From Gammaproteobacteria bacterium (GTDB lineage: Bacteria; Pseudomonadota; Gammaproteobacteria; Pseudomonadales; Azotimanducaceae), in the NCBI GenBank assembly GCA_024640825.1, contig JAHEEG010000008.1, forward strand, positions 26,326-58,626: a stretch of DNA of 32,301 nt, given 5' to 3'. Below are positions 19,081-32,301 of the stretch, piece by piece. The notes beneath the pieces are model-generated. The model had not been told where the DNA came from, did no database searches, and saw nothing but the letters and a program-made list of their open reading frames with translations. The position numbers and the translations under genes are program-made. Each line of letters starts with the position of its first letter. Position 1 is the first letter of the stretch.

Positions 19081-19275
19081 GAGGGTAATTCCACTCGCCA
19101 AACCCGCGATTCTGCCAAAGCCGCGCCCCGGGGTCGATGGCGCCGCGGCCCAGGCCCCCGATCAGGTCGTACTTTCTGACTCATCCTCTGCCCCGCAGCG
19201 ACGTCGAATGCCATCCCAATGACGCCGCAGCGGCTCATCTGTATTACCATCGATGAAAACAACCGAGGCGGCTTT

Positions 19276-20049
19276 GTGATAAACGAACTGATCCAGGACT
19301 ATCCCGAGATCGCCGCCGTCCTCATGCTGCTGCTCGGATTCCTGCTGGGCCGGCTGGCCCAGACCGGGATTCAGCGCCTGCTGAGCGTTGCCGAACGACT
19401 GCTGGCGAGGTTCACGACCAGTGGGGAAAGCATTTTCTCCCCGGTCTTCATAAGAGCTTTCGGTCTGTTTGCCTACAGCGCGGTACTGGTGATTGCCATC
19501 GTGCTGGCCGTGCGCCTGCTGGACATAAACCAGCTGTCGCAATGGCTCGACCAGGCACTCGCCTATGCCCCGCAGCTGATCATCGGCCTGTTCATCATCG
19601 GCCTTGGCAACGTGCTGGGCGTGCTTGCTCGAAATCTGGTAGCCGGGCTGAGCAACAGTTGGGAAACCAGCTCGCTGGTTCCCCGCTTCGTGCACGGGGC
19701 AGTGCTCACCATAGCTATCATCACCGGCCTGGAGCACCTGGGCCTGGCCATTTCCTTTGTTACCCAGCTGTCGCTGATTCTCCTCGCCGCGCTGCTGGGC
19801 GGCCTGTCCCTCGCCTTCGCTCTGGGTGCCAAGCAGTACGTCGCCAATCTGCTGGCTCACAACGAGCTGGCGAAGTACAGCGCGGGCGAAAGGCTGCGCA
19901 TAGACGACGATGAGGGCACGGTCATCGATATTCACCAGACGGGTATCGTTCTCTCTACCGGGGAGGGATTGGTGGCCATTCCAGCCGCTCGCCTTGCTTC
20001 CGGGAGGGTGTTGAAGATCACCCGTGAAGCTTCGGGTATCTCTAAATGA
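19276..20049 (+). CDS. Mechanosensitive-channel-related TM-helix protein
   Basis: A 257-aa integral membrane protein. Hydrophobic helices are seen at about residues 10-30 (IAAVLMLLLGFLLGRLAQTG), 57-82 (FGLFAYSAVLVIAIVLAVRL), 96-118 (APQLIIGLFIIGLGNVLGVL), 140-160 and 164-186. The APQLIIGLFIIGLGNVLG run and the LALGAK-like helix FALGAKQYVANLLAHNEL match the conserved TM helix repeat (PF05552) of small MscS-related proteins. A short beta domain (EGTVIDIHQTGIVLSTGEG) closes the protein, as after the MscS pore helix. I prefer GTG 19276, with GAGGCGG upstream, over ATG 19219, which adds 19 polar residues. It overlaps the next gene by 4 bases (ATGA). Confidence 0.75.
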   Translation: MINELIQDYPEIAAVLMLLLGFLLGRLAQTGIQRLLSVAERLLARFTTSGESIFSPVFIRAFGLFAYSAVLVIAIVLAVRLLDINQLSQWLDQALAYAPQLIIGLFIIGLGNVLGVLARNLVAGLSNSWETSSLVPRFVHGAVLTIAIITGLEHLGLAISFVTQLSLILLAALLGGLSLAFALGAKQYVANLLAHNELAKYSAGERLRIDDDEGTVIDIHQTGIVLSTGEGLVAIPAARLASGRVLKITREASGISK

Positions 20050-20870
20050 CTCGGACGAGCAGACTTTCCGAGGCGTTCGCGCGCAACCATCCCGCGGAGA
20101 TCGCGAGCTTTCTGGCTGCCAACAGCGCAGAAACGCTGGTCGAGACCGTTCTACAGCTGCCGGATGACGCCGCGGCCGCGGTAGTTTCTCACCTGCCCCA
20201 CGGCACGGCCAACGCGGTGCTGAGCCAGGTTGCCGACGACCGGGTTGGCGAGTGGCTGGGCGAGTCCTCAGTGGGCCAGGCACTGAACCTGGTGCTTCGG
20301 CTCGATCCGACCCGCCGAGCCGGGATCCTCGGCGATCTGCCGAATCGGGCGTTGCGCGTGAGGCTGGAAAGACTGGTGGTGTATCCGCGCCGGACGCTGG
20401 GCGCCCTGGCAGACGCGACGACGGTTCGTTTGCAGGCGGCCACCCCGCTTCACGAGGCGGTATCGATTCTTCGTGGTCAGAACGAAATCGAGCAGGGGCC
20501 GGTCTGGATCGTGGACGAATCGGGCCGGTTTCTGGGCGAGCTGGATATGGTCAAAGTGGTTCTGGCGAGCAGACCTGATGCCCAGGTGCGCGACTGCCTG
20601 AAAGCGTTGTCTGCCCTGCACGCAGAATCCTCCCTGCTGGCCGCCCACGACGACCCGAGCTGGCTGCACCATCTGAGCCTGCCGGTAGTGGACCACGACG
20701 GGCATCTTCTCGGCAGCGTAACCCGCGCGCAGCTGACCAGGTTTGTGGCAGAAGACGCGCCTGAGACCAGCAGCGGAATCGCGGATACCCTGGCATCGCT
20801 CGCCGGCCAGTACCTGCGTTTCCTTGCCGTCTGCCTCGCCGAGCTGCTGCCGAGCCGGCCTTCCCGATGA
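20046..20870 (+). CDS. Soluble MgtE-like protein (MgtE N domain plus CBS pair, no channel domain)
   Basis: A 274-aa protein resembling the cytosolic half of the magnesium channel MgtE. Residues about 1-115 are helical MgtE-N-like repeats (HPAEIASFLAANSAETLVET, LPDDAAAAVVSHLPHG, LRLDPTRRAGILGDLP). About 120-250 hold two CBS-like units (LQAATPLHEAVSIL with VWIVDESGRFLGELD, and LPVVDHDGHLLGSVTRAQL). There is no transmembrane domain; the final LRFLAVCLAELLP is at most one short hydrophobic segment. It overlaps its neighbours by 4 bases on both sides (ATGA), including the full MgtE that follows. The likely role is a Mg2+- or nucleotide-sensing partner of that channel, by inference from context and domain content. 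Confidence 0.8.
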   Translation: MTRTSRLSEAFARNHPAEIASFLAANSAETLVETVLQLPDDAAAAVVSHLPHGTANAVLSQVADDRVGEWLGESSVGQALNLVLRLDPTRRAGILGDLPNRALRVRLERLVVYPRRTLGALADATTVRLQAATPLHEAVSILRGQNEIEQGPVWIVDESGRFLGELDMVKVVLASRPDAQVRDCLKALSALHAESSLLAAHDDPSWLHHLSLPVVDHDGHLLGSVTRAQLTRFVAEDAPETSSGIADTLASLAGQYLRFLAVCLAELLPSRPSR

Positions 20871-22156
20871 GCGTCGGGGCCATCGAGAACGAATATCTAA
20901 GGCGCCATCCCGGCGAGGCAGCAGACCTGATAGATCGGTTGCCTGTGGATTCGCTGCCCGGCGACCTGGAAGGCCTCGATCCTTCGCCGCTGGCGCTGAC
21001 ACTGGACTACTTGAGCCCGGTCAAAGCCGCCGCCGTTTTCAAACTTCTGCCGGCCGTACAGCAGGTAGAACTGCTCGAGATAGCGTCGCCGCGCCTGACC
21101 ATCGCTCTGCTGGGCGAAATGGAGACGGACGAGAGTGAGGCGCTGCTGAGTCAGCTGTCCCCTGCGGTCCGTGAAGACATTACCCGTCTGGCCAGCTTTC
21201 CGGAGAATTCCGCCGGGCGCCTGATGGATCGGTTGTTCCGCGGTTACCCCGAAGACATGAGCGTCGCGGAAGCACTGAAACGCCTGAGAGAGTCGGACAT
21301 CCGCCGCGCGCGCTCGCTGTACCTTGTAGGGACAGACAATGCCCTGATCGGACGGGTGGACATGCAGGATCTGGCCTTTGCCGAACCGGAAGCAAAACTG
21401 GGCGAGTACCTGCACCCCATTGAAGACTGCGTGGACGCCATGGCACCTCGGGAGGAGGTGGTTAAGCTGCTGGACCGCTACCGCCTGGATTCGATCCCCG
21501 TGGTTGATACCGAGGGCAAGCTGATGGGCGTGGTGCGCTACACCAGCCTCTTCCAGGCCATCGAAGACGTTGCAACGGCCGACCTGCAGAAAATGGTCGG
21601 CGTGAGCGCGGACGAGCGGGCGCTGTCCTCAGCGGGCTTCTCGGTCCGCCGCCGTCTGCCCTGGCTGCACATCAATCTGCTCACCGCTTTTCTGGCCGCT
21701 TCCGTGGTTGGTCTGTTCGAGAATCTGATCGCGCAGTTCACCGCCCTGGCGGTTTTGCTGCCCGTCGTGGCGGGCCAGTCGGGCAACGCTGGCTCTCAGG
21801 CGCTGGCGGTCACCATCCGTGGCCTGGCGCTGAAAGAAATCGGCATCCGCCAGTGGCGCGCAGTGCTCAACAAAGAGCTGATGGTGGGCATCGTCAACGG
21901 CACCGCGCTAGCAATCACCTGCGGCCTGGGGGTGTTCCTGTGGAGCTCGAGTTACGGGTTGTCCTTGGTCATCGCCGTCGCCATGGTCATGTCCATGGTC
22001 GCCGCCGGTATATCAGGCGCTCTGGTGCCCATGCTGCTCACGCGCTTCGGTCAGGATCCGGCCACCGCCTCGTCGATCGTCCTGACGACGGTCACCGACG
22101 TTGCCGGCTTCTTCTCGTTTCTGGGCACAGCAACCCTGCTGTCGTTCATGCTTTGA
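20867..22156 (+). CDS. mgtE: Magnesium transporter MgtE
   Basis: Mg2+-selective channel of the inner membrane, 429 aa. The N domain spans about residues 1-125 (ENEYLRRHPGEAADLIDRLP, with PENSAGRLMD marking its end). CBS pair: SVAEALKRLRESDI to VGTDNALIGRVDMQDLA, and VVKLLDRYRLDSIPVVDTEG. The plug helix leads to the five-helix pore domain from about residue 260 (RRLPWLHINLLTAFLAASVV). The signature VLLPVVAGQSGNAGSQALAV matches the conserved MgtE pore segment; the Asp in the last helices (TTVTDVAGFFSFLGTA) corresponds to the Mg2+-coordinating residue of the family. Translation is probably coupled to the soluble MgtE-like gene through the ATGA overlap. Confidence 0.95.
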   Translation: MSVGAIENEYLRRHPGEAADLIDRLPVDSLPGDLEGLDPSPLALTLDYLSPVKAAAVFKLLPAVQQVELLEIASPRLTIALLGEMETDESEALLSQLSPAVREDITRLASFPENSAGRLMDRLFRGYPEDMSVAEALKRLRESDIRRARSLYLVGTDNALIGRVDMQDLAFAEPEAKLGEYLHPIEDCVDAMAPREEVVKLLDRYRLDSIPVVDTEGKLMGVVRYTSLFQAIEDVATADLQKMVGVSADERALSSAGFSVRRRLPWLHINLLTAFLAASVVGLFENLIAQFTALAVLLPVVAGQSGNAGSQALAVTIRGLALKEIGIRQWRAVLNKELMVGIVNGTALAITCGLGVFLWSSSYGLSLVIAVAMVMSMVAAGISGALVPMLLTRFGQDPATASSIVLTTVTDVAGFFSFLGTATLLSFML

Positions 22157-22165
22157 GGCCGAAAC

Positions 22166-24970
22166 ATGTACCTGGTTTTACTTGCGATATCCCTTGCCGC
22201 CGGCGCCCTGCTGGCACGTGCCGGTCTGGTGCAACGGCAGCGGGCACGGCTGCTGTGTGGGCTGCTCCTCATCCTCGCGAGCCTGAGCTTTTTCGGGTGG
22301 ATGAGCTTCTGGGGCGAGTATCTCTGGTTCGAGGCGCTGGGCTACGGCTCGCGCTTCTGGATTTTCGTGGGTGCCCGGTTAGGCGCGGCTGCGTTCGGGG
22401 CAACGCTGGCATTTGCGGCGGCCTGGGCGCTGGCTTTCCGTGCCGGCCCGCACCTGCGCCGCCGGGTGGCCTTGATAGCGGCACCCGGCGGCCTCATCTG
22501 GGGCCTGCTCTGCTGGCAGAACGCCCTGATGTATCTGAATCGGGTCAGCGCTGGGGTGGCAGATCCCCTGCTCGGGTTGGATGCCGGCTTTTACCTGTTC
22601 TCACTGCCCCTACTGGATGGCCTGTTCTGGCTGCTGCTCTATGTGGCGACCGTGGCCCTGCTGGCCACGTTCTTCGTCTGGGAGCAAGGCGGCGTGATCC
22701 GTCTGCGCGTCGTGCAGGAACCCCAGGGCGATCAGCTGGCAGTGCCTCTGGCAAACGCCGGCCTGGCGCTGGTGCTGGCCGCCGGAATGCTGCTCACCCT
22801 GTGTCATCTGCTGTATTCGGACTGGGGTGTGGTGCTGGGACCCGGGTGGGTCGACACGCACATTCGCCAACCGGCTCTCGTCGGCGCCGCTGTCGGTTTC
22901 CTGCTGGTAGGGCTGCTGCCGCTGTTTCCCGGTTTCCGCGCACGAACGCTGTCGCTGCTCGGCAGATGGCTGCACACGGGCCGCCCCGCCATAGCCGCTC
23001 TGGCAGCCGTGTGGTCGGGGATCGCTCTGGTATCGACGCTGCTGCTGGTCGCAATTCCGGCGCTGGTCCAGTGGCTGGTGGTCAAACCCAACGAGATTAC
23101 CTTTGAAAAGCCGTACATCGCCCACAATATCGAATTCACCCGCCGCGGATTTCTCCTCGATCGCGTCGAGGAGAAGCAGTTTGTTCCCACGGATACGCTT
23201 TCCCAAGCCACCATTGACGACAACCAGAACCTGCTATCTGAGATAAGGCTGTGGGATTGGCGCGCCCTGGACGCGGTCTACAAACAGTTTCAGGAAATCC
23301 GCCTCTACTACGAGTTCGTTGACGTGGACATCGACCGCTACGAGTTCGGTGGCAACTACCGCCAGGTGATGGTGGCAGCCCGTGAGCTGGCCCAGCACAA
23401 CCTCCCCGCCCAGAGCCAGACCTTCGTGAACCAGCGGTTCAAATTTACACATGGCTACGGGATCACGCTGGCAACGGTCAGCGACTTCACCCCCGAAGGC
23501 CTGCCCAACCTGCTGGTGCGGGATATCCCACCGCAAGCCAAAGTGCCGGAACTCGCCATAACGCGACCGGAGATCTACTACGGCGAATTGACGTACGGGT
23601 CTGCGGTGGTGAACACGCTGGAGGAAGAGTTCGACTATCCCAGCGGCGAGTCAAACGTCTACGCCAGGTACCAGGGATCCGGCGGGGTTCAGCTGTCGAG
23701 CTTCTGGCGGAAGCTGCTGTTCGGCTGGAAATTTGATGGCACCCTGTTCCTGCTATCCAGCTATCCAACGCAGGACAGCAGGATCATGTTTCGCCGGCGC
23801 ATTCAGGAACGGGTCAAGAACATAGCGCCTTTCCTGGTGTTCGACGCTGACCCGTACATCGTCACTGTAGATGGCCGCCTTTACTGGATCATGGACGCCT
23901 ACACACGATCGAACTACTACCCGTACAGCCAGCCTTTCGACTCGCGAGAGTTCATCGAGTACCGGGAGGGTTCCGTAGGCACCAGAACGGTGGCTCGCCT
24001 GGACGGCGCCAACTATCTGCGCAACTCGGTCAAGGTCGTCGTCGATGCCTACAACGGCAGCGTCGATCTTTATGTGTTTGATGCGGAGGATCCCATCACC
24101 CGCACCTGGCAGCGGGCGCTGCCAGGGCTGTTCAAACCGGCCGATGCCATGCCGCAGGGGCTGCGCAAACACGTACGCTACCCGCAGGATTTCCTGCTTG
24201 CCCAGGGTCTGATCTTCACCAAGTATCACATGTCCGACCCGGAAGTTTTCTACAACCAGGAAGATCTTTGGGTTCGGGCCACTGAGAAGCACTACCACAG
24301 CATCAAGCCTGTGGAACCCTACTATGTCATGTGGGAGCTGCCCGGCTCCAACCGTGCGGAATTCGTCCTCATCCTGCCCTTCACCCCGAAGAACCGCCAG
24401 GTGCTCATCGGCTGGATCGCCGGCCTGTCTGACGCAGACAATTACGGCCGCTTTCTGGCCTACAAGTTCCCAAAGGAAAAGCGGGTACTCGGTCCACAGC
24501 AGGTGGAAAGCAAGATCGATCAGGATTCCTTCCTGTCGGGTCAGCTTACGCTCTGGGATCAACAGGGTTCCGATGTCATCCGGGGCAACGTGCTGGCGAT
24601 ACCCATCGACAACACGCTGCTGTACGTAGAGCCCATCTACCTGCAGGCTGAAACGGCAGCCTATCCCGAGCTGCGTCTGGTGGCCATCATGCACGGCGAC
24701 AAGCTCAGCTACGCAGAGACCTTCGACGAAGCTCTGCTTGGGCTGCTGATGCCTGGGTCAGCAAACGGGCAACTCGACGCCGGCAGCGCCGGCAATGTCG
24801 CCAGCCAGGCGCAGGCCGCGTTCAACGGCTACCTGCAGTCGCTTGGCGCCAGAGAATTCGAAGAGGCCGCTCGGCAGCTTGCGCTGCTGAGCTCACTGCT
24901 GGAGGCGCTGGTTGGAACTGACCCAACGGTCCCACCAGAGACCGGGCGGGCGCCGGCGCCCGTCGACTGA
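22166..24970 (+). CDS. UPF0182 family large membrane protein
   Basis: A 934-aa member of UPF0182 (COG1615), a family of unknown function. The first about 310 residues hold around seven transmembrane helices, with the typical SFFGWMSFWGEYLWFEALGY near residue 46. The remaining about 620 residues form a large domain, probably extracytoplasmic. Family blocks there include FEKPYIAHNIEFTRRGFLLD, LLSEIRLWDWRALDAVYKQF, YRQVMVAARELA, FTHGYGITLATVS, RPEIYYGELT, DPYIVTVDGRLYWIMDAYT and MWELPGSNRAEFVLILPFTP. GAGG lies 7 bases before ATG 22166, 9 bases after mgtE, and tdh starts 15 bases after its stop. It is placed in the middle of the + strand run that ends with grdA. Role unknown. Confidence 0.9.
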   Translation: MYLVLLAISLAAGALLARAGLVQRQRARLLCGLLLILASLSFFGWMSFWGEYLWFEALGYGSRFWIFVGARLGAAAFGATLAFAAAWALAFRAGPHLRRRVALIAAPGGLIWGLLCWQNALMYLNRVSAGVADPLLGLDAGFYLFSLPLLDGLFWLLLYVATVALLATFFVWEQGGVIRLRVVQEPQGDQLAVPLANAGLALVLAAGMLLTLCHLLYSDWGVVLGPGWVDTHIRQPALVGAAVGFLLVGLLPLFPGFRARTLSLLGRWLHTGRPAIAALAAVWSGIALVSTLLLVAIPALVQWLVVKPNEITFEKPYIAHNIEFTRRGFLLDRVEEKQFVPTDTLSQATIDDNQNLLSEIRLWDWRALDAVYKQFQEIRLYYEFVDVDIDRYEFGGNYRQVMVAARELAQHNLPAQSQTFVNQRFKFTHGYGITLATVSDFTPEGLPNLLVRDIPPQAKVPELAITRPEIYYGELTYGSAVVNTLEEEFDYPSGESNVYARYQGSGGVQLSSFWRKLLFGWKFDGTLFLLSSYPTQDSRIMFRRRIQERVKNIAPFLVFDADPYIVTVDGRLYWIMDAYTRSNYYPYSQPFDSREFIEYREGSVGTRTVARLDGANYLRNSVKVVVDAYNGSVDLYVFDAEDPITRTWQRALPGLFKPADAMPQGLRKHVRYPQDFLLAQGLIFTKYHMSDPEVFYNQEDLWVRATEKHYHSIKPVEPYYVMWELPGSNRAEFVLILPFTPKNRQVLIGWIAGLSDADNYGRFLAYKFPKEKRVLGPQQVESKIDQDSFLSGQLTLWDQQGSDVIRGNVLAIPIDNTLLYVEPIYLQAETAAYPELRLVAIMHGDKLSYAETFDEALLGLLMPGSANGQLDAGSAGNVASQAQAAFNGYLQSLGAREFEEAARQLALLSSLLEALVGTDPTVPPETGRAPAPVD

Positions 24971-24985
24971 GGCAACAACGCGACT

Positions 24986-25957
24986 ATGCCCACCATTCTC
25001 GTTACCGGCGCTTTCGGCCAGATCGGCACGGAGCTCACCCAGGCGCTCTACACCCGCTATGGCGCCGACAACGTGCTGGCCACGGGTCGGCGGGTTCCCG
25101 AATCCGCAGGCACGCTGGCCGGTCCGGTGGAAACACTCGATGTCACCGACCCGGCACGACTGCGGGAAGTCTGCGCACGCCACGACGTCGAGATCATCTA
25201 CCATCTGGCGGCCAGGCTGTCGGCGGTTGCTGAGCAGGCCCCCCTGGAAGCCTGGCGCATCAACGTCGACGGTCTGCGCAACGTGCTGGAAACGGCAAAA
25301 GCGTCCGCCGTCAAGCGCCTGTTCTGGCCCAGCTCCATCGCCGTCTTCGGTCCAGAAACGCCGCGAACGCTGACACCTCAGGATACCGTCACCCGACCAA
25401 CCACCGTCTACGGCATCGCCAAAGTTGCCGGAGAGCTGCTCTGTGACTACTACGCGCGGCGCTACGGGCTGGACGCGCGCGGCGTCCGCTACCCCGGGGT
25501 GATATCCAGCGGCGCCCTGCCCGGCGGCGGCACCACGGACTACGCGGTGGAGATTTTCTATGCCGCTGTTCAAACAGGTAGATACACGGCTTTTGTGCGG
25601 GAAGACTGCCGGTTGCCCATGATCTACATGCCCGACTGCGTCAAGGCGGCCCTGCAGCTGATGGACGCGGACCGGGAGACGCTGGAGCACCGCAGCGGCT
25701 TCAATATCAACGCAATGAGCTTCTCCGCCGGCGAGCTGGCAGCGGAGATCCGCAGGCACATTCCGGACTTCATCTGTGACTTTGATCCCGACGAGCGTCA
25801 GCAGATCGCCGACTCCTGGCCTGACAGCCTGGATGACGGCGCCGCACGCCGTGAATGGGGCTGGCAACCGAGTTACGACCTGGAGACCATGACGGCGGAC
25901 ATGCTGTCAAAGCTCAGAGCGCGCCGGTTGAGCGGACACAAGGAAACGGCCCGATGA
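24986..25957 (+). CDS. tdh: L-threonine 3-dehydrogenase, short-chain (epimerase-like) type
   Basis: NAD+-dependent oxidation of L-threonine to 2-amino-3-ketobutyrate. The 323-aa protein is of the extended short-chain dehydrogenase type found in animals and some bacteria, not the zinc alcohol-dehydrogenase type of E. coli. The Rossmann motif is TGAFGQIGTEL near the N-terminus. The catalytic YxxxK is Tyr142/Lys146 in TVYGIAKVAGELLCDYY. Family-specific blocks include SSIAVFGPETP, PGGGTTDYAVEIFYAA, LPMIYMPDCVKAA, FNINAMSFSAGELAAEI and ADSWPDSLDDGAARREWGW. These make Tdh much more likely than a sugar epimerase. Its stop overlaps the kbl start (ATGA), matching the known pairing of the two enzymes. 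Confidence 0.95.
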   Translation: MPTILVTGAFGQIGTELTQALYTRYGADNVLATGRRVPESAGTLAGPVETLDVTDPARLREVCARHDVEIIYHLAARLSAVAEQAPLEAWRINVDGLRNVLETAKASAVKRLFWPSSIAVFGPETPRTLTPQDTVTRPTTVYGIAKVAGELLCDYYARRYGLDARGVRYPGVISSGALPGGGTTDYAVEIFYAAVQTGRYTAFVREDCRLPMIYMPDCVKAALQLMDADRETLEHRSGFNINAMSFSAGELAAEIRRHIPDFICDFDPDERQQIADSWPDSLDDGAARREWGWQPSYDLETMTADMLSKLRARRLSGHKETAR

Positions 25958-27147
25958 GAACGCTCGATGCACGGCTGGCGGAAACTCTGCAGGGGCTTCG
26001 TCAGGCGGGAACCTACAAAACCCTGCGAAGCCTCAGCGCACCCATGGGCCCAGTAACCCGCCTTCACGCCGCGGGAGAGGTCCTGGTGTTCTGCTCGAAC
26101 AACTATCTGGGTCTTGCCAATGACCCGGAGATTGTCGAGGCCGCCCGTCAGGGGCTCGCCGCCTATGGCGCCGGTACGTCCAGCGTGCGCTTCATCTGCG
26201 GCACCTTCGATTGCCATCTGGCGCTGGAGGAGAAGACGGCCGAATTCCTCGGCACTGAGGCCGCACTCAGCTACAGCAGCTGCTGGAACGCCAACGAGGG
26301 CCTGATTCCAGCACTGGCGGGCCATGACGATGCCATCATCTCCGACGAGGCCAACCACGCGAGCATCATCGATGCAGGTCGTCTGTCCCAAGCCGATCGG
26401 ACGGTGTTCATACACAGCGACATGGACGACCTGGCGCAAAAGCTGGCCGACGTGCACGGCGCCGCGCTGAAACTGGTGGTGAGCGATGGCGTGTTCAGCA
26501 TGGAAGGCGACGTAGCGCGCCTGCCGGAAATGCAGGTGCTTTGCCGGCAGCACGACGCGGTGCTGGTGATCGATGACTCGCACGGCACCGGCGTGCTTGG
26601 CCCCCGCGGCAGAGGCAGTCACGAGCATCTCAGGGTGCCTGCCAGCGGCCCGAACGGCATCGACATCCTGACTGGCACCTACGGCAAGGCGCTGGGCGGT
26701 GGCAACGGTGGCTTCGTGGCAGGCTCCAGAGATCTCATCGACTATCTGGTGCAGCGCAGCCGTCCCCACCTGTTCTCCAACGCGCTGGCCCCGCCCACCG
26801 CCTGCGCTGCGCTGAAGGCGCTGGAAATTCTGGAACGGGAGCCTGAGCGAGTCACACAGCTGCACAGCAACGTCACCAGAATGCGTCAAGGGCTGAGGGA
26901 GATCGGCTACGAGGTTACGGATTCTCCAACCGGGATCATTCCAATCATGATCGGGGACACCGCTAAAGCCCTTGCTCTATCCGAGGGCCTGCTGGAGATG
27001 GGCGTTTTCGTGGTTGGATTCGGCTTTCCAGTCGTGCCGGAAGGCAAGGCCCGTTTGCGGGTGCAGATGTCGGCAGCGCACACTGACGCCCACATCGACC
27101 GGGCGCTGGATGCATTTGCACGCCTGAAGGCCAACCTCCCGGACTGA
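25954..27147 (+). CDS. kbl: Glycine C-acetyltransferase (2-amino-3-ketobutyrate CoA ligase)
   Basis: PLP enzyme that splits 2-amino-3-ketobutyrate with CoA into glycine and acetyl-CoA, completing the threonine route begun by Tdh. The 397-aa length is one residue from the E. coli enzyme. Diagnostic blocks: FCSNNYLGLANDPEIVEAA, SSVRFICGTFDCHLALEEK, SDEANHASIIDAGRLS, VIDDSHGTGVLGPRGRG (PLP-contacting Asp/His) and GTYGKALGGGNGGFVAG with the Schiff-base Lys245. HLFSNALAPP and the C-terminal RLRVQMSAAHT are typical of Kbl. The frame is open further upstream, but ATG 25954 gives the conserved N-terminus and a 4-base overlap with tdh. grdC begins 13 bases after the stop, so glycine is produced directly beside a glycine reductase gene. 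Confidence 0.96.
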   Translation: MRTLDARLAETLQGLRQAGTYKTLRSLSAPMGPVTRLHAAGEVLVFCSNNYLGLANDPEIVEAARQGLAAYGAGTSSVRFICGTFDCHLALEEKTAEFLGTEAALSYSSCWNANEGLIPALAGHDDAIISDEANHASIIDAGRLSQADRTVFIHSDMDDLAQKLADVHGAALKLVVSDGVFSMEGDVARLPEMQVLCRQHDAVLVIDDSHGTGVLGPRGRGSHEHLRVPASGPNGIDILTGTYGKALGGGNGGFVAGSRDLIDYLVQRSRPHLFSNALAPPTACAALKALEILEREPERVTQLHSNVTRMRQGLREIGYEVTDSPTGIIPIMIGDTAKALALSEGLLEMGVFVVGFGFPVVPEGKARLRVQMSAAHTDAHIDRALDAFARLKANLPD

Positions 27148-27160
27148 ATGGAGCAACGCC

Positions 27161-28630
27161 GTGACGGACAATCCGGTCATCCGAAACTGCGCCTTCTGCC
27201 TGGTTCACACACCGGATCTGGTGCGATTCGGTTCCAAACCTCGCCGCGAGTTGGAAGCAGAACCGTCCCTGGCAGACCGCCTGGAGGGCGCTCTGCGCAG
27301 CTATGCCGCAGCCGTTGCGTACCCGCCAAACCAGACTTTTATCGGCAATCTCAGCCCGCTGCAATTGGGACAGATTCCCAAACCCTGGTTCGCTGGGCAA
27401 AGTCCCCGCAATAGCGCAGAGGCTTCGGGACCTTTCGGAGAGATCATCAACCAGGATCTGTTCTACGCCGCCCTGAGGCAGGCCAACGTTCTGCAGCCAC
27501 CGCTGGTAGCTTTGACGACCGAAGCAGCGCAAAAACTGGCAAAGCTGCTGGCCGCGCATCCGGTGTTTGGCCCTCTGGCACAGAGCGCCATGGCGGCGGA
27601 CCCGGCGGGCTTTCAACAGGAAATCGATGCGGGAAAGGCGCTCCCGCTCAGAACCGGCGGGACGCTGCAGGGCCTGGTGCGAGGTGACAACCGGTCCGAG
27701 GGGGCCGGCGATATCAACCTGGACCCGCATACCCTGCTGGAAGCCCTTACCGCAAAAACCACAGGCGCCCTGGCGCTCAGGTGGCTGCTGCACCGCGAGC
27801 AAATGCAGCCTGACCAGGTGGACTACATCATCAGCTGTGGCGAGGAAGCCACCGGCGATCGCTATCAGCGGGGTGGCGGCGGGGTAGCGAAAGCCATTGG
27901 CGAAATGTGCGGATGCGTCAACGCTTCCGGCATGGATGTGAAGAACTTCTGCGCCGCCCCCGCCTCGGCGCTGGTCACGGCCGGCGCGCTGATCAAAGCG
28001 GGCCTTTACGAGCGCGTCGCCGTGGTTGCTGGAGGATCGCTCGCCAAGCTGGGCATGAAATCCATGGCCTTTCTGCGCGAAGGGATGCCTATCCTGGACG
28101 ACAGCCTCGGCTGCATCGCGTTTCTCGTCACCCGTAATGACGGCGCAAGTCCGGTGCTGCGCCTGGATCGCGGAGCGGTCGGCAAGGCGAGCATCGGCGC
28201 CAGCACGTCGGACCAGGCCATCTACGAACAGCTCATATTGAAGCCGCTGCGCGCCCTCGGCCTGACCATGGCTGACGTCGACAGGTTCGCACCGGAGCTG
28301 CACAACCCTGAAATCATGGAATTTTCCGGCTCCGGAGACGTTGCACACAAAAACTATCGTATGATCGCCGCCACGGCCGTCCTTGCCGGTGAGATCGACA
28401 AAGCCGGCATGCGCGCCTTCACTGAACGGATCGGCATGACGGGTTTCGCACCGACCCAGGGCCATATACCGTCAGGCGTACCCTATGTCGGCCATGCGTT
28501 GGCGGCAATGCAAGCGGGCGAGCTGTCCCGTGCTATGTTTCTGTGCAAGGCGAGCCTGTTTCTCAATCGGCTCACCAGTCTCTTCGACGGGGTATCATTC
28601 CTGCTGGAATCCCAGAAGCGACAACCGTAA
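27161..28630 (+). CDS. grdC: Glycine reductase complex protein C, beta subunit (GrdC)
   Basis: Thiolase/KAS III-like subunit of protein C, which receives the carboxymethyl-selenide intermediate of GrdA and carries the acetyl unit. The 489-aa product is slightly shorter than clostridial GrdC (about 510). Family blocks: NQTFIGNLSPLQL, DYIISCGEEATGDRYQRGGG, KAIGEMCGCVNASGMDVKNF followed by CAAPASAL with candidate active-site Cys264, RFAPELHNPEIMEFSGSGDV, FAPTQGHIPSGVPYVGHA (His435) and RLTSLFDGVSFLLE. The start is GTG with GGAG about 7 bases upstream. The partner subunit GrdD, expected next in clostridial operons, is absent here: grdA begins 25 bases after the stop. Assignment is strong; the reaction product without GrdD is uncertain. 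Confidence 0.93.
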   Translation: MTDNPVIRNCAFCLVHTPDLVRFGSKPRRELEAEPSLADRLEGALRSYAAAVAYPPNQTFIGNLSPLQLGQIPKPWFAGQSPRNSAEASGPFGEIINQDLFYAALRQANVLQPPLVALTTEAAQKLAKLLAAHPVFGPLAQSAMAADPAGFQQEIDAGKALPLRTGGTLQGLVRGDNRSEGAGDINLDPHTLLEALTAKTTGALALRWLLHREQMQPDQVDYIISCGEEATGDRYQRGGGGVAKAIGEMCGCVNASGMDVKNFCAAPASALVTAGALIKAGLYERVAVVAGGSLAKLGMKSMAFLREGMPILDDSLGCIAFLVTRNDGASPVLRLDRGAVGKASIGASTSDQAIYEQLILKPLRALGLTMADVDRFAPELHNPEIMEFSGSGDVAHKNYRMIAATAVLAGEIDKAGMRAFTERIGMTGFAPTQGHIPSGVPYVGHALAAMQAGELSRAMFLCKASLFLNRLTSLFDGVSFLLESQKRQP

Positions 28631-28655
28631 TTCACGTGGACTCAGGAGAAACGAG

Positions 28656-29117
28656 ATGCGCATTCTGAAAGGGCACAAGGTCGCCATCTTCGGCGAACGG
28701 GACGATGTTGCCGGTTCCGCCGTGCGCAACTGCGTGCTGGCGGCCGGTGCAGAGGTGGTCTACGAAACAACGTCCTGCTTCGTCTGAACCTCCGCCGGCG
28801 CCGCAGGTCTTGCGGAGCAGGAACAGATCAAAGCCCTGGCAGAACGCTGCGGGCCAGACCAGCTCGTGCTCGTCTTCGGCCTGAATGAGCCCGGCAATCT
28901 AAGAATCATGGCCACCACCTTCAAGGACGGAGACCCCAGCTACGCCGGCGCTCTGGGAGGCATCGCCCTTGGCCTCAAGAGTTATCACATATTTGAACTG
29001 AAAGACGAAATCCCCGCGGAAGTCTGGGCTCGGGAAATGGCATTCAAAGAGCTGGAAGTGGAGGATGCCCTCATCGAGCAGATCTGCACCATCATGCGGG
29101 AAATACGCGGCGACTGA
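28656..29117 (+). CDS. grdA: Glycine reductase selenoprotein A (GrdA), TGA read as selenocysteine
   Basis: Small redox carrier that takes the carboxymethyl group from protein B onto its selenol and passes it to protein C. The 153-aa frame runs from ATG 28656 (AGGAGA upstream) through an in-frame TGA at 28785-28787 to TGA 29115-29117. Reading that TGA as Sec gives TTSCFVUTSAGAAGLAEQ, the GrdA signature, with Sec at residue 44 in a CxxU motif (Cys41). Homology continues without a break on both sides, for example FGERDDVAGSAVRNC before and VLVFGLNEPGNLRIMATTF after. Total length is close to clostridial GrdA (about 158). Sequence without Sec would leave a useless 43-residue peptide. The last codons lie in a tandem repeat. 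Confidence 0.96.
28785..28820 (+). promoter_or_regulatory. SECIS-like element of grdA
   Basis: Exactly 18 bases after the TGA, GGTCT is presented in a loop by the 5-bp stem CCGCA (28801-28805) with TGCGG (28811-28815). E. coli fdhF, as I recall it, has the same GCAGGUCU apical sequence at the same distance from its UGA. An alternative longer pairing, CTCCGC (28790-28795) with GCGGAG (28812-28817), competes with the lower part. The element would recruit SelB for Sec insertion. Confidence 0.8.
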
Positions 29118-29193
29118 TTCACAGCGACTGATTCACAGCGACTGATTCACAGCGACTGATTCACAGCGACCGATTCTCACCGGCTGATTCTCA
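29110..29193. repeat. 14-bp tandem repeat array, six copies, between grdA and grdB
   Basis: Four identical units GCGACTGATTCACA occupy 29110-29165, followed by the diverged units GCGACCGATTCTCA (29166-29179) and CCGGCTGATTCTCA (29180-29193). The first unit encodes the end of GrdA (Gly-Asp-stop). The array ends 10 bases before the stop of convergent grdB. As 14 is not a multiple of three and each of the first four units holds TGA on both strands, the array places stops in all frames in both directions. Confidence 0.93.
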
Positions 29194-29203
29194 GCAAAGA
29201 CGC

Positions 29204-30541
29204 TCATGGCCCATCGAACACTGTCTGATCGGAAATCTCCGTTTCAAGCGCGGACAACGCCTGTTCCAGCAGCCGGCGTCGGATTGCCCGCTCTTCGGTC
29301 AGGGTTTTACCAGGATCTCCGAGCGGGTGCGGGATGGCCACGCTGGGGACGATGCGGTTTGCGCCAACCGTTTTCGAGATGGTGATGATCGAGCAAATAT
29401 GGGCCGTGGGCAGGCCGGCCCGCTCCAGTTCCTTCACCATCGTTGCACCGCAACGAGTACAGGTGCCTCACGTCGACGTGAAGATGACGGCCTGCACGCC
29501 TTCGTTCACGAGCAAAGCGGCAATCTCAGTGCCGAAACGGCGTGCCTGCTCTACCGACGTGCCATTACCCACGGTGGCAAAATAGCGGGGAAACAGCCGG
29601 CCGATGCGCCCTTCCTGTTCCAGAACTCTTGCCATATCCAGAGGCAGCACGCGATTCGGATCTTCATTAGCGTACGTGGGATCGTAACCACCGTGCACGC
29701 TCCGATGCGTGGTCGCGTTGAGCGCTTCGAGACCTTCGATAGAGTACTGACCCCAACCGCTCGCACTGGCGGACTCGATGCGGTCCGGGTTGCCCGAGGG
29801 AACGATACCGCCGGACGTAATCAATGCTACCGTGGCTCGAGACGCATCGGCGATCGGCGGCGCGGGTGGGACGCGATCGAAGCTGGGCATGGGGTACTCG
29901 TTAGCAAAGGCTTCACCCCGCAGCTTGCACAGCAGCATTTCAATGGCGCGCTCGGCCCCAGATGCAGCAGCAAAGTAATTCTGCCGCAAACCCCGAGGGA
30001 TGATGCCGTCCCGGGCAGGCAGCAGATTCTCCCCTGCCACGAGTTTGTCCAGAATAGCCGCCACGCCCGCGACGGCTTCTCTCATGCCCATTACATCACT
30101 GGTGGTACGGACCATGACCACCTCTCGGCGGTACCCGTCCACCGCTGGATTCTCCGGGTACATGGCCGTTACGGCTGGCCAGCCGTAGCGGTTCCCGAGC
30201 GCCTGACAGAGCGCCGCACAGGCAATGCCGTACCGGCCGGCATTGAACGCCGGACCGGCGATGAAGAGATCGATCGCAGATTCATCAACGTGTTGCGTCA
30301 CCACCTGGAGGGCCCGGCTCACCGCCGACTCCAGATCTTCTGCCATGTAGTTATCCCCGGCCACGAGGGTTCCGACGATCTCTAGCCCGGGCGCCACACT
30401 CTCCAGCAACCGCCCGGGCCCTGCAGCGCCTTCCAGCCACAGCGGCTCGAGCCCGCCCTGCTCCTCTCCACCCTGACCGGCAAAAAACTGGTTGAGGTAG
30501 TGCACCGCCCTCAGCTTCGGCTTCGGCTTGGGACTGGACAT
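29204..30541 (-). CDS. grdB: Glycine reductase protein B selenoprotein subunit (GrdB), TGA read as selenocysteine
   Basis: Selenoprotein half of substrate-specific protein B, which with GrdE binds the substrate and releases ammonia. The 445-aa frame contains an in-frame TGA at 29468-29470 (minus strand). Read as Sec358 it gives VIFTSTUGTCTRCGATMVKE, the GrdB UxxC signature. The N-terminus KLRAVHYLNQFFAGQGGEE is typical, and AGDNYMAEDL, GPAFNAGRYGIACAALCQ and YPENPAVDGYRREV follow. ATG 30541 has AGAGAGG at 7 bases; a GTG at 30547 overlapping the grdE stop is an alternative. Subunits for sarcosine (GrdF) or betaine (GrdH) are close relatives. The tdh-kbl context favours glycine, which is inference. 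Confidence 0.95.
29441..29470 (-). promoter_or_regulatory. SECIS-like element of grdB
   Basis: On the minus strand, 18 bases after the TGA, a perfect hairpin CGTTGC-GGT-GCAACG (29441-29455) places GGU in its loop. Distance and the GGU loop match the grdA element and the enteric SECIS pattern, although the stem sequences differ and the coding constraints are unrelated. Confidence 0.78.
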
Positions 30542-30543
30542 GG

Positions 30544-31785
30544 TCACACCTCTCTGCAGCTCAGGTTGGAAAAACCAAGCTGGTTGGTTGCACCCATGAT
30601 GGCCTGAAGTTCAACCTCCATGGAGCCATCGCTCCCCAGGTTCCCGGCGTAACCGCCAGCCAGCCTTTCGGCATCCGCCAGCGGACCGATAGTGGTGGCC
30701 ATTGGCGGCAGACGGACGCGTTGATTAGCATTCCCCGTGGAAACAATGGCATTGGCATGCGACGTGGAATCGGCCAGGGATTGGGAGCCGCCGTCCGCAC
30801 CCGCAAACTCGTCGCTGAGCGCCACCGCCTTAACCCCGCCCAGTTCAAGGCCCCGCAGCAGCATCATGAGGTCAGCATCGGGATTGCCGAACCCTTCCTT
30901 GCTGACCACGACCGCTCGGGCACCCAGTTCCCGGGTGAGCGATACGGCAATTTCGGCAGAGCGCTGCTTCTCTGCCAGGCGCGTGGGCACGTTAGTCATA
31001 ACCAGGCCGACAAAATTCCAGCGCTTGCCGTGCCCATCGAGGAGCAGGCGGATGATAGGGTTGTTCTGGTGATGGTAAGTGGTGTTTTTGTCGCAGGCGC
31101 TCACGCAGTTTCCAGAGACCACGCCATTATCCAGAACGATCCTCGGGTCCAGCACCCGAGGGATTGTTCCTGACGCGTTCTCACCGAGCAGATAGGTATC
31201 GTGAAGCAGACCCTGTGTCAGCACCATGCAGACGTAGGCGATCCGCGGCAGGCGCTCGTCCACGGCAACCTCGTTCCAGAGGACCTCCTGCGTCTCCGTC
31301 GGCGCGGCTTCCGCACAGACCTCACCGAGATACGCGGCGGCCTCGAGGCCGGCCGCCCGGACTATGGCTTCGTGGTCATGGGGCCGTGTACCCGGCTTAA
31401 CCTGCAGTTCCAGAACCACCAGGTGCAATCGAGAAAACGGCGTATAGTCCGCACCGGGACCGGACATGTCGATGATACCTTCCTGAAAACCGACGATCGG
31501 TCCGCAGGTAACCACCGCGACCCCATCCAGGACGCCGAGATGACCGCCGCCGGGCGCTTTGGCGTCGAGTTTGAAACGGGGCTGCACGACGTCCTTGCAG
31601 CACAGCAGCCGCGTAGCATCACCCGGATGCGCGAGATGCAACCGAGCATCTTCGATGCGCGGCTCCAGATTTCGAAGCCGGCTGCCGAGCGCTTCAGGAT
31701 CAATCCGAAGATGGCCTTGAACAAAATCGGATGCCCCTCCCATGCTCACCCTTGAAACCGCAAACGTCTGAACGGTCAGCGTCAT
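30544..31785 (-). CDS. grdE: Glycine reductase protein B proprotein (GrdE)
   Basis: Precursor of the alpha and beta subunits of protein B. In clostridia the chain is cleaved at a cysteine that becomes a pyruvoyl-type carbonyl, which forms a Schiff base with the substrate amine. The 413-aa product (clostridial about 428) has the cleavage-site signature GVVSGNCVSACDKNTTYHHQ, with Cys227 the likely cleavage residue and Cys231 nearby. Other family blocks: GHLGVLDGVAVVTCGPIVGF, QEGIIDMSGPGADYTPFS, IPRVLDPRIVLDNG, FVGLVMTNVPTRLAEKQRSA, VVSKEGFGNPDADLM and LADSTSHANAIVSTGN. grdB follows, its start next to or overlapping the grdE stop. The GrdG (sarcosine) and GrdI (betaine) paralogues are similar, so substrate is inferred from neighbours. 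Confidence 0.95.
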   Translation of the reverse strand: MTLTVQTFAVSRVSMGGASDFVQGHLRIDPEALGSRLRNLEPRIEDARLHLAHPGDATRLLCCKDVVQPRFKLDAKAPGGGHLGVLDGVAVVTCGPIVGFQEGIIDMSGPGADYTPFSRLHLVVLELQVKPGTRPHDHEAIVRAAGLEAAAYLGEVCAEAAPTETQEVLWNEVAVDERLPRIAYVCMVLTQGLLHDTYLLGENASGTIPRVLDPRIVLDNGVVSGNCVSACDKNTTYHHQNNPIIRLLLDGHGKRWNFVGLVMTNVPTRLAEKQRSAEIAVSLTRELGARAVVVSKEGFGNPDADLMMLLRGLELGGVKAVALSDEFAGADGGSQSLADSTSHANAIVSTGNANQRVRLPPMATTIGPLADAERLAGGYAGNLGSDGSMEVELQAIMGATNQLGFSNLSCREV

Positions 31786-31808
31786 GATGAACGTTTCTCA
31801 ATCGGCGA

Positions 31809-32301
31809 TCAGCCGGATTCCGGTTCGCGTTTTATCAAAGACACCCGCTTTGCCCGAACGCCCTCACCACCCTGTTGGGTGACGTAGTGGACGGCTATGC
31901 CTGGCGAAAGGCTGTCGAACTCAGCGTCCACCACGACATCTCGGCTGAAGTAAACTTCCTCGCCTTCCGGCGTCGTGAGGAACCCGTAATCCTCATCTGG
32001 AATCAGCCTGCCCACAGTCGCCATGTGGGAGGGTTCATGGGGTTTGACATGCCCCCGACGCACCCGGACATACGCCTGGAGCTGACGACGCAGCGCATCG
32101 AAAGCGTCGCGGATGGATACGTAAATATCCTCGTGCGCGTGATTGTCAGCCGGATCCCGGGTAACGATGATTTCTTTATCGGGAACTTTGAGACTCAACC
32201 TCAGACGGTAGAGATTACCCTTGTGATGATGCCTGTGCGGAGAATCCACAACTACCCGGCAGCTGATGATGTTGTCACAGAAAGCGTCCAGCTTCTGCGC
32301 C
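31809..32301 (-). CDS. Ribosome hibernation factor (HPF/S30AE) fused to a cold-shock domain, 5' part outside the window
   Basis: The frame runs off the right edge of the window without a start; 163 codons are visible. The first about 90 residues match the end of an HPF/RaiA-type S30AE domain: CRVVVDSPHRHHHKGNLYRL, VTRDPADNHAHEDIYVSIRD, FDALRRQLQAYVR. After a short linker (KPHEPSHMA), a cold-shock-like beta barrel follows: TVGRLIPDEDYGFLTTPEGE, EVYFSRDVVVDAEFDSLSPG and VHYVTQQGGEGVRAKRVSLI. A GTG at 32249 is not the true start, as homology continues upstream of it. The fusion should bind ribosomes or RNA under stress. It ends 23 bases before grdE on the same strand, so it may be first in the grdE-grdB transcript. 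Confidence 0.87.
   Translation of the reverse strand, partial: AQKLDAFCDNIISCRVVVDSPHRHHHKGNLYRLRLSLKVPDKEIIVTRDPADNHAHEDIYVSIRDAFDALRRQLQAYVRVRRGHVKPHEPSHMATVGRLIPDEDYGFLTTPEGEEVYFSRDVVVDAEFDSLSPGIAVHYVTQQGGEGVRAKRVSLIKREPESG

Follow-up and report, generated by a model that had tools for sequence, protein, structure and literature searches.

A six-gene block in a gammaproteobacterial draft genome of the family Azotimanducaceae (4.09 Mb, 96.35% complete and 1.27% contaminated) places genes for threonine degradation directly beside genes for a selenium-dependent reductase of the glycine reductase (Grd) family. The window, by which we mean the whole 32,301-nucleotide stretch of DNA that was analyzed, covers positions 26326-58626 of a 58,626-base contig, and its end is the end of the contig. 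At window positions 24986-31785, just as a sequence-only reading of this DNA had described, tdh, kbl, grdC and grdA lie on the plus strand and face grdB and grdE on the minus strand. The plus-strand arm encodes an L-threonine 3-dehydrogenase of the short-chain dehydrogenase/reductase (SDR) type (tdh, 323 residues, 24986..25957), a glycine C-acetyltransferase or 2-amino-3-ketobutyrate CoA ligase (kbl, 25954..27147), the beta subunit of component C without its canonical C-terminal tail (grdC, 27161..28630) and selenoprotein A (grdA, 28656..29117). The minus-strand arm encodes the component B alpha proprotein (grdE, 30544..31785) and selenoprotein B, which starts at a GTG codon (grdB, 29204..30547). 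tdh and kbl overlap in an ATGA and, by their coordinates, the grdE stop and grdB start overlap in a GTGA.

The two threonine enzymes are recognizable from solved relatives. Tdh, a PF01370 protein, matches 18 solved sequences at E <= 1e-20, of which 14 are named L-threonine (3-)dehydrogenase and 4 merely epimerase or epimerase/dehydratase; the top three phmmer matches are artificial proteins, led by the artificial L-threonine 3-dehydrogenase 7cgv (403 bits), and the best match not named artificial is 7ol1 (354 bits). No model in the NCBIfam scan names Tdh, and we assign it as an SDR-type L-threonine 3-dehydrogenase because of its full-length similarity to these solved enzymes. Kbl scores above the cut-off of the glycine C-acetyltransferase model NF005394 (480.4 vs 460) and below that of TIGR01822 (444 vs 493); among solved sequences it matches 2-amino-3-ketobutyrate CoA ligases best (7bxp, 371 bits), and it is 44% identical to E. 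coli Kbl. The pair would catalyze the same pathway step as the E. coli tdh-kbl operon, which contains no Grd genes and whose Tdh is of the medium-chain (MDR) type rather than the SDR type.

The Grd proteins share their principal parts, GrdE, GrdB and GrdA with selenocysteine (Sec), and GrdC, with the canonical glycine reductases of Peptoclostridium and Acetoanaerobium/C. sticklandii. GrdC and GrdA exceed the cut-offs of their NCBIfam models (NF040746, 532.6 vs 450; NF040748, 140.5 vs 130, with PF04723 also matching), and GrdB, scanned without its last 11 residues against PF07355 (448 bits), far exceeds that of TIGR01918 (539 vs 65). GrdE is identified by PF09338 (469.5 bits) and by alignments that include its SGNCVSACDKNTTYHHQNNP motif; it has the conserved Asn-Cys, within SGNCVSACDK, at which proproteins of this kind are cleaved, and is missing a run of about 13 residues found in canonical GrdE. 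A search of solved sequences with GrdE found none at E <= 1. The GNC motif of GrdE and the UxxCxxC motif of GrdB are both kept, as in canonical glycine reductase. Two more partial PF07355 matches in the same genome, neither with an internal stop, are probably distant GrdB relatives: one of 35.7 bits (cut-off 22) at 6718-7080 of contig C261, and one of 20.9 bits, under the cut-off, at 15768-16160 of contig C200.

We compared the block with 85 loci, comprising the best 80 of at least 560 found in one scan of named genome contigs and 5 from annotated records; several are cut by contig ends, and the labels of contigs from metagenome-assembled genomes (MAGs) may be wrong. Among those best 80, the closest loci have GrdE 50-62% identical to that of the window and come from MAGs labelled Rhodopirellula, Alphaproteobacteria, Rhodospirillales, Planctomycetota, Proteobacteria and various deltaproteobacteria or Desulfobacterota, with one (L071) from an isolate, Desulfogranum marinum DSM 2058. 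GrdE of Firmicutes, Synergistetes, Spirochaetes and Photobacterium is 43-49% identical. FastTree trees rooted on betaine reductase and built from hits covering 85% of the query (85, 80, 62 and 65 of the 85 loci for GrdE, GrdB, GrdC and GrdA) place a core group in one clade with support of 1.0 on GrdE plus GrdB (13 members including the window, the GrdB of L046 being too short), on GrdC (9 members) and on GrdA (9 members). Two further loci, L076 and L113, join this core with support of 0.858 on GrdE plus GrdB and 0.948 on GrdA, and on GrdC solely together with a third locus, L066; an interim IQ-TREE tree gives the same groups without support values. We call the 13 core loci with L076 and L113 the lineage (15 loci) and the remaining 70 the other loci. 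These trees thus place the block in a supported lineage, found in Alphaproteobacteria, Planctomycetota and Desulfobacterota, that lacks GrdD. The core also carries a paired change in component B: the Cys of the GrdB CGD motif is present in 65/66 other GrdB sequences and 0/13 core members, and GrdE position 62 is Pro in 70/70 others and Cys in 13/14 core members. Loss of GrdB Cys63 and gain of GrdE Cys62 occur together in 12/13 core pairs, and neither occurs in L076 or L113.

Component C sets the lineage apart from canonical systems. The GrdD model (NF040747) had no match anywhere in the window's own genome, and in whole-genome searches of 21 further genomes GrdD exceeded its cut-off in 0/15 lineage genomes, whose completeness is not stated and several of which are small drafts, versus 6/6 canonical controls; four of the 15 gave weak matches only (23-34 bits). 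GrdC itself is shortened. Outside the lineage, GrdC aligns over 300 residues or more in 53 loci; in 52 of them it continues past the DGxS motif with a tail of some 34-51 residues or with a GrdD-like extension, whereas GrdC of the window and of 10/10 lineage loci with the gene ends 8-24 residues after that motif. The only tail-less GrdC outside the lineage is that of L066, a Halanaerobiaceae MAG whose fetched stretch shows no GrdD and whose GrdB has Ala in place of Cys63; the locus falls outside the lineage on GrdE plus GrdB, and its short GrdC may be an independent loss. In L079, L082, L089, L092, L103, L052 and L081, from various anaerobes, GrdC has a long GrdD-like extension, and these appear, partly by eye, to be GrdC-GrdD fusions.

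Alignment columns show GrdC Cys264 to be invariant, and the predicted structure of the window's GrdC (pLDDT 88.5, pTM 0.92) has a thiolase/KAS III-type fold. Its top matches are SpoVAD, OleA, PqsBC, KAS III and thiolases (Z 20.8-22.8, root-mean-square deviation 3.1-5.4 over 253-292 of 489 residues), with Foldseek TM-scores by query length of merely 0.29-0.40, and a profile search aligns the Cys264 stretch with the Cys region of KAS III (E 5e-5). Acyl exchange with CoA is common among enzymes of this fold. Since the genome has neither GrdD nor, with 0 matches, acetate kinase, the closing steps of the textbook route, by which acetyl-phosphate leads to ATP, are not apparent here.

Both selenoprotein genes carry an in-frame UGA followed by a candidate selenocysteine insertion sequence (SECIS). 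In grdB the UGA is codon 360, in the context TST-U-GTCTRC, and a SECIS_4 element (Rfam RF01990; 29430..29467, minus strand; 62.2 bits vs a gathering score of 38, E 3.9e-13) directly follows it. In grdA the UGA lies at 28785-28787 in the context CFV-U-TSAGA, which has the expected CxxU, and a SECIS-like hairpin (28785..28815, plus strand) places a GGTCT loop on a 5-bp stem 18 nt after the UGA, the same spacing as in E. coli fdhF. Taken alone, this hairpin folds no more stably than shuffled sequences (z -0.14), and our support for it comes from covariation rather than from the stability of a single fold. Across all ten core members whose grdA was fetched, 50/50 pair cells are standard pairs and 3/5 pairs are changed on both sides, a number reached by 18/500 shuffles, while the covariation score is reached by 0/500; the loop is GGTCT in 7 and GGACT or GGGCT in 3. 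L076, L113 and five canonical grdA genes that we compared do not have the hairpin sequence and were excluded from this count.

The machinery for selenocysteine is encoded in the same genome. The sequence-only reading had suggested looking there for selA, selB, selC and selD, and had named the absence of all of them as a refutation; all four are present. selA, selB (with a run of N inside the gene) and the gene for tRNA-Sec, selC, lie side by side on another contig, and selD has two matches over its cut-off. The second selD is on a 3.4-kb contig, C287 (82-1314), beside a 495-residue open reading frame that by eye resembles the reverse transcriptase of a group II intron; G004, a genome from the same genus, has one over-cut-off selD. 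Because SelA matches occur in 58/97 relatives searched, including most of the same family, the selenocysteine machinery is probably older than the grd block in this genome.

Comparison with G004 reveals what may be an empty insertion site. On the left, a host gene for a UPF0182 membrane protein (22166..24970, plus strand; PF03699, 794 bits) ends 15 bp before tdh, and on the right a host gene for a 146-residue protein, whose S30AE-like and cold-shock-domain matches are weak and below Pfam gathering scores (31809..32249, minus strand), lies 23 bp upstream of grdE. Given these spacings, each arm trails a co-directional host gene, with which it may be transcribed. In G004 these two host genes adjoin, 55 bp apart, and are 83-86% (left) and 84.6% (right) identical in DNA to those of the window. 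In blastn, 22165-24912 and 31809-32301 match the G004 stretch and nothing aligns within 24913-31808, so that the whole block (24971..31808) is absent at the same place; the 6.8 kb between the flanking genes hold just the six genes. GC content is 0.624 in the block and 0.622 in the upstream flank.

The distribution of GrdE also points to gain of the block. PF09338 matches occur in no other genome among 144 relatives, 368 members of the class and 397 of the phylum (145, 369 and 398 with the window's own genome), sets that overlap and are samples of larger groups, and the four further members of the genus that we searched all lack the block. Horizontal transfer is therefore likely, with loss in the others as the alternative. 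Inheritance from an ancestor of the phylum is made unlikely by the absence of GrdE across these three samples; other Proteobacteria with Grd do exist, the scan of named genome contigs having found it in Photobacterium and Alphaproteobacteria. A scan of viral contigs with GrdE found no relative. One of the 85 loci, L036 (MT838886.1), is labelled a bacteriophage from human faeces, but its grdE, grdB and trxB are like those of gut bacteria, and the record is probably a bacterial contig.

Linkage between threonine and glycine reductase genes recurs within the lineage. An SDR-type Tdh, 53-55% identical to that of the window, lies within the fetched flank of 4/15 lineage loci (L038, L045, L048 and L071) and of 0/70 others; Fisher's exact test, which treats related loci as independent, gives 0.0007 without the window and 0.0001 with it. 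A Kbl-like alpha-oxoamine synthase is found in 3/15 lineage loci, all among the Tdh-bearing four, versus Kbl in 2/70 others (0.01 by the same test with the window included); in L088, one of those two others, Kbl is more than 8 kb from grdE. L045 has tdh, the synthase, grdC and grdA in one run and in the same order as the window, tdh is divergent from grdC in L071 and L048, and in L038 it lies about 5 kb from grdE. Outside the lineage, a true kbl (59% identical to that of E. coli) directly follows the canonical GrdC-GrdD fusion of L079, a Defluviitaleaceae MAG. An MDR-type Tdh, sought in all 85 loci with the E. coli protein, was found in none at E <= 1e-10.

We propose, with modest confidence, that the block is a horizontally acquired cassette for L-threonine catabolism, in which glycine is converted to a second acetyl-CoA by a GrdD-free Grd. 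The roles of the individual Grd parts are textbook knowledge. In our model, Tdh would oxidize threonine to 2-amino-3-ketobutyrate, producing NADH, and Kbl would use CoA to split this product into acetyl-CoA and glycine. GrdE-GrdB, with its pyruvoyl group and selenocysteine, would then reductively deaminate glycine onto the selenocysteine of GrdA (the component roles are in part set out in PMC13188914). GrdC would convert the resulting carboxymethyl group to an enzyme-bound acetyl thioester on Cys264. CoA would most likely take over this acetyl group from GrdC, so that a second acetyl-CoA forms instead of acetyl-phosphate, an outcome that we prefer because GrdD is missing and because enzymes with the GrdC type of fold commonly make such exchanges. 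NADH from Tdh would supply the two electrons for glycine reduction by way of the cell's own thioredoxin system, and the net reaction would convert threonine and 2 CoA to 2 acetyl-CoA and NH4+. By simple arithmetic, the conversion of threonine + H2O to 2 acetate + NH3 involves no net redox change, the NADH formed by Tdh being consumed in glycine reduction. The cassette would thus balance itself and need not serve as an electron sink, one of the two roles in which glycine reduction had initially been cast. The wider suggestion made at that time, a catabolic module yielding two two-carbon units from threonine, gains from the finding that in the loci compared tdh lies near grd beyond chance, and needs amending in that the enzyme, with no GrdD match, is not a standard glycine reductase.

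More tentatively, and with slightly less conviction than an even balance, we suggest that the lineage represents a second, GrdD-free architecture of glycine reductase in which GrdC gives its acetyl group to CoA. This architecture would have spread by transfer in respiring and sulfate-reducing bacteria and been repeatedly joined to Tdh and an alpha-oxoamine synthase, making a redox-balanced module from threonine to two acetyl-CoA. The genome's two matches to COX1, along with RpoS, agree with the earlier placement of the block in a respiring gammaproteobacterium. COX1 matches occur in 6/11 lineage genomes searched, so some genomes of the lineage have a terminal oxidase and others do not; such matches also occur in 3/3 Photobacterium/Aliivibrio genomes with canonical Grd, and respiration is thus not special to the lineage.

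Several results count against these proposals, and we weigh them together with the alternatives on which they bear. The step to acetyl-CoA is one that we infer, no thioredoxin gene lies within the block, and acetate kinase matches occur in 8/15 lineage genomes (one of them weak) as well as 6/6 controls, meaning that the absence of GrdD is not matched by an absence of acetate kinase. These acetate kinase matches would suit an alternative that we regard as unlikely, though worth serious attention, in which the module is the same but GrdC releases free acetate, later reactivated by an AMP-forming acetyl-CoA synthetase, or makes acetyl-phosphate by itself. Also in its favor, the stretch beyond tdh in L045 (14969-18864) carries, on the same strand, genes for an acyl-CoA ligase and pyruvate synthase-like porB/porA. 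The window's block, on the other hand, contains no acyl-CoA ligase, its genome has no acetate kinase match, and the GrdC fold, to the extent that a shared fold speaks to function, favors CoA as the acyl acceptor.

A second group of results concerns the substrate. GrdB falls below the cut-off of the glycine-specific model TIGR01917 (505 vs 602) and scores slightly higher on the sarcosine GrdF model, there too below the cut-off (538 vs 800), and the best NCBIfam match of GrdE is sarcosine GrdG, again below the cut-off (347 vs 780). The sarcosine pair of L034 falls inside the canonical glycine group in our tree, and the tree alone therefore does not settle the substrate. A published GrdB motif (PMC9751293) fits 0/13 core members and 54/66 other loci, and of L076 and L113 only the latter; the window's GrdB departs from it in having AGD for CGD and VHGG for AHGG. 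Surveys filtered on this motif would probably miss the lineage. Together with the exchange of Cys residues between GrdB and GrdE, the sarcosine-leaning scores give some room to a rather improbable reading in which the substrate of the Grd branch is sarcosine, another N-methylglycine or an amino-ketone that Tdh produces, with tdh-kbl supplying or removing it. The residues at positions separating GrdB from GrdF argue for glycine: GrdB of 13/13 core members has TVGN[GA]T and HGGYD[PA], versus TTGT and DR in L034, the only annotated sarcosine GrdF in the comparison, and by this measure the window's GrdB is of the glycine kind. Moreover, kbl makes glycine, and the block has no transporter for betaine or sarcosine. 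We did not file the enzyme with sarcosine reductase (GrdF/GrdG), nor with betaine reductase (GrdH/GrdI), whose component B is likewise homologous, because it scores far below the cut-offs of both; the GrdH model gives 464 against a cut-off of 775. We class it instead as a variant of glycine reductase rather than a plain member, because it lacks GrdD, stays under the glycine-specific cut-off and does not fit the published motif.

That tdh-kbl and grd are unrelated passengers of one transferred segment is, in our judgment, very unlikely. Here the results to be set against our proposal are that 11/15 lineage loci, several of them cut by contig ends, have neither Tdh nor Kbl in the fetched flank, that the lineage Tdh proteins are merely 53-55% identical to the window's, that the synthases of L038, L045 and L071, 55-61% identical to one another, are just 36-40% identical to Kbl and below Kbl cut-offs, and that the Fisher tests count relatives as independent. 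Random association of tdh-kbl with grd genes, which the sequence-only reading had named as grounds for abandoning its model, is not seen in the Tdh counts, and those 11 relatives are the part of the comparison that speaks for it. The block, however, holds nothing else of note and keeps tdh, kbl, grdC and grdA in one tight run, L045 has the same gene order, and kbl is separately linked in L079; the clean six-gene difference from G004 and the Fisher tests likewise make random passengers unlikely. As to transfer, a second segment between thrS and the UPF0182 gene (19143-22164) is likewise without match in the G004 stretch, so the region is variable; it holds a mechanosensitive-channel-like gene and two MgtE-like genes. 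An assembly artefact that brought in the block from another organism, or contamination more generally, is the least credible explanation, for although the block lies near a contig end, with a right flank of about 0.5 kb, and is missing from the four other genomes of the genus, both flanks match neighboring G004 genes, GC content is equal, and the Sec machinery is present in the genome and SelA in many of its relatives.

Returning to the proposed threonine cassette, we compared it with known systems that share some of its features. Relative to canonical glycine reductase, the lineage has no over-cut-off GrdD, no GrdC tail and, in 12/13 pairs, the altered component B; the window in addition has a different gene order and no trx gene in the block, and of its 15 relatives only L046 has a TrxB-like match. 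Known gammaproteobacterial Grd clusters, in Photobacterium and Shewanella MTB7, are sel-dependent and of the kind with grdD, and that of MTB7 has been proposed to result from horizontal transfer (PMC10059138). In our set, the Photobacterium/Aliivibrio loci L032, L070, L072 and L080 have trxB, trxA, grdA, grdC, grdD, grdE and grdB on one strand, and their GrdE is 44-46% identical to the window's. The glycine reductase of C. sticklandii is of the canonical kind. This organism converts threonine to glycine and acetyl-CoA by the same two steps that we propose here, and the part of the account available to us does not mention gene linkage (PMC3091704). In the reductive glycine pathway of Desulfovibrio desulfuricans, glycine reductase operates in a respirer outside Stickland metabolism and feeds acetyl-CoA, but glycine there comes from CO2, both component C subunits are present and the route runs via acetyl-phosphate, whereas in the window glycine would come from threonine and GrdD is missing (PMC7547702). 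The fluoroacetate reductase FarE/FarB is a GrdE/GrdB-like pair with altered substrate (PMC10838667); the FarE model gives 89 bits on the window against a cut-off of 675. A literature search of limited reach turned up no description of a glycine reductase without GrdD or of clustered tdh, kbl and grd genes, and the GrdD-free lineage has apparently been overlooked.

Glycine reductase is a model both of selenium catalysis and of substrate-level phosphorylation via acetyl-phosphate. A lineage consistently without GrdD, to which the formation of acetyl-phosphate is ascribed, and without the GrdC tail would show that its chemistry can run without the acetyl-phosphate step, and the cassette described here might allow a respiring bacterium to use threonine by a route for which it depends on selenium. 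The lineage has a cultured member in Desulfogranum marinum DSM 2058 (L071).

Elsewhere in the window, the class I fumarase, OmpW and acyl-CoA metabolism genes named earlier as neighbors are found as an Fe-S fumarase, an OmpW-like protein (191 vs a cut-off of 287) and acyl-CoA genes. Between the two convergent arms of the block, a 14-bp unit, GCGACTGATTCACA, is repeated six times in tandem (29110-29195), from the end of grdA across most of the gap to grdB.

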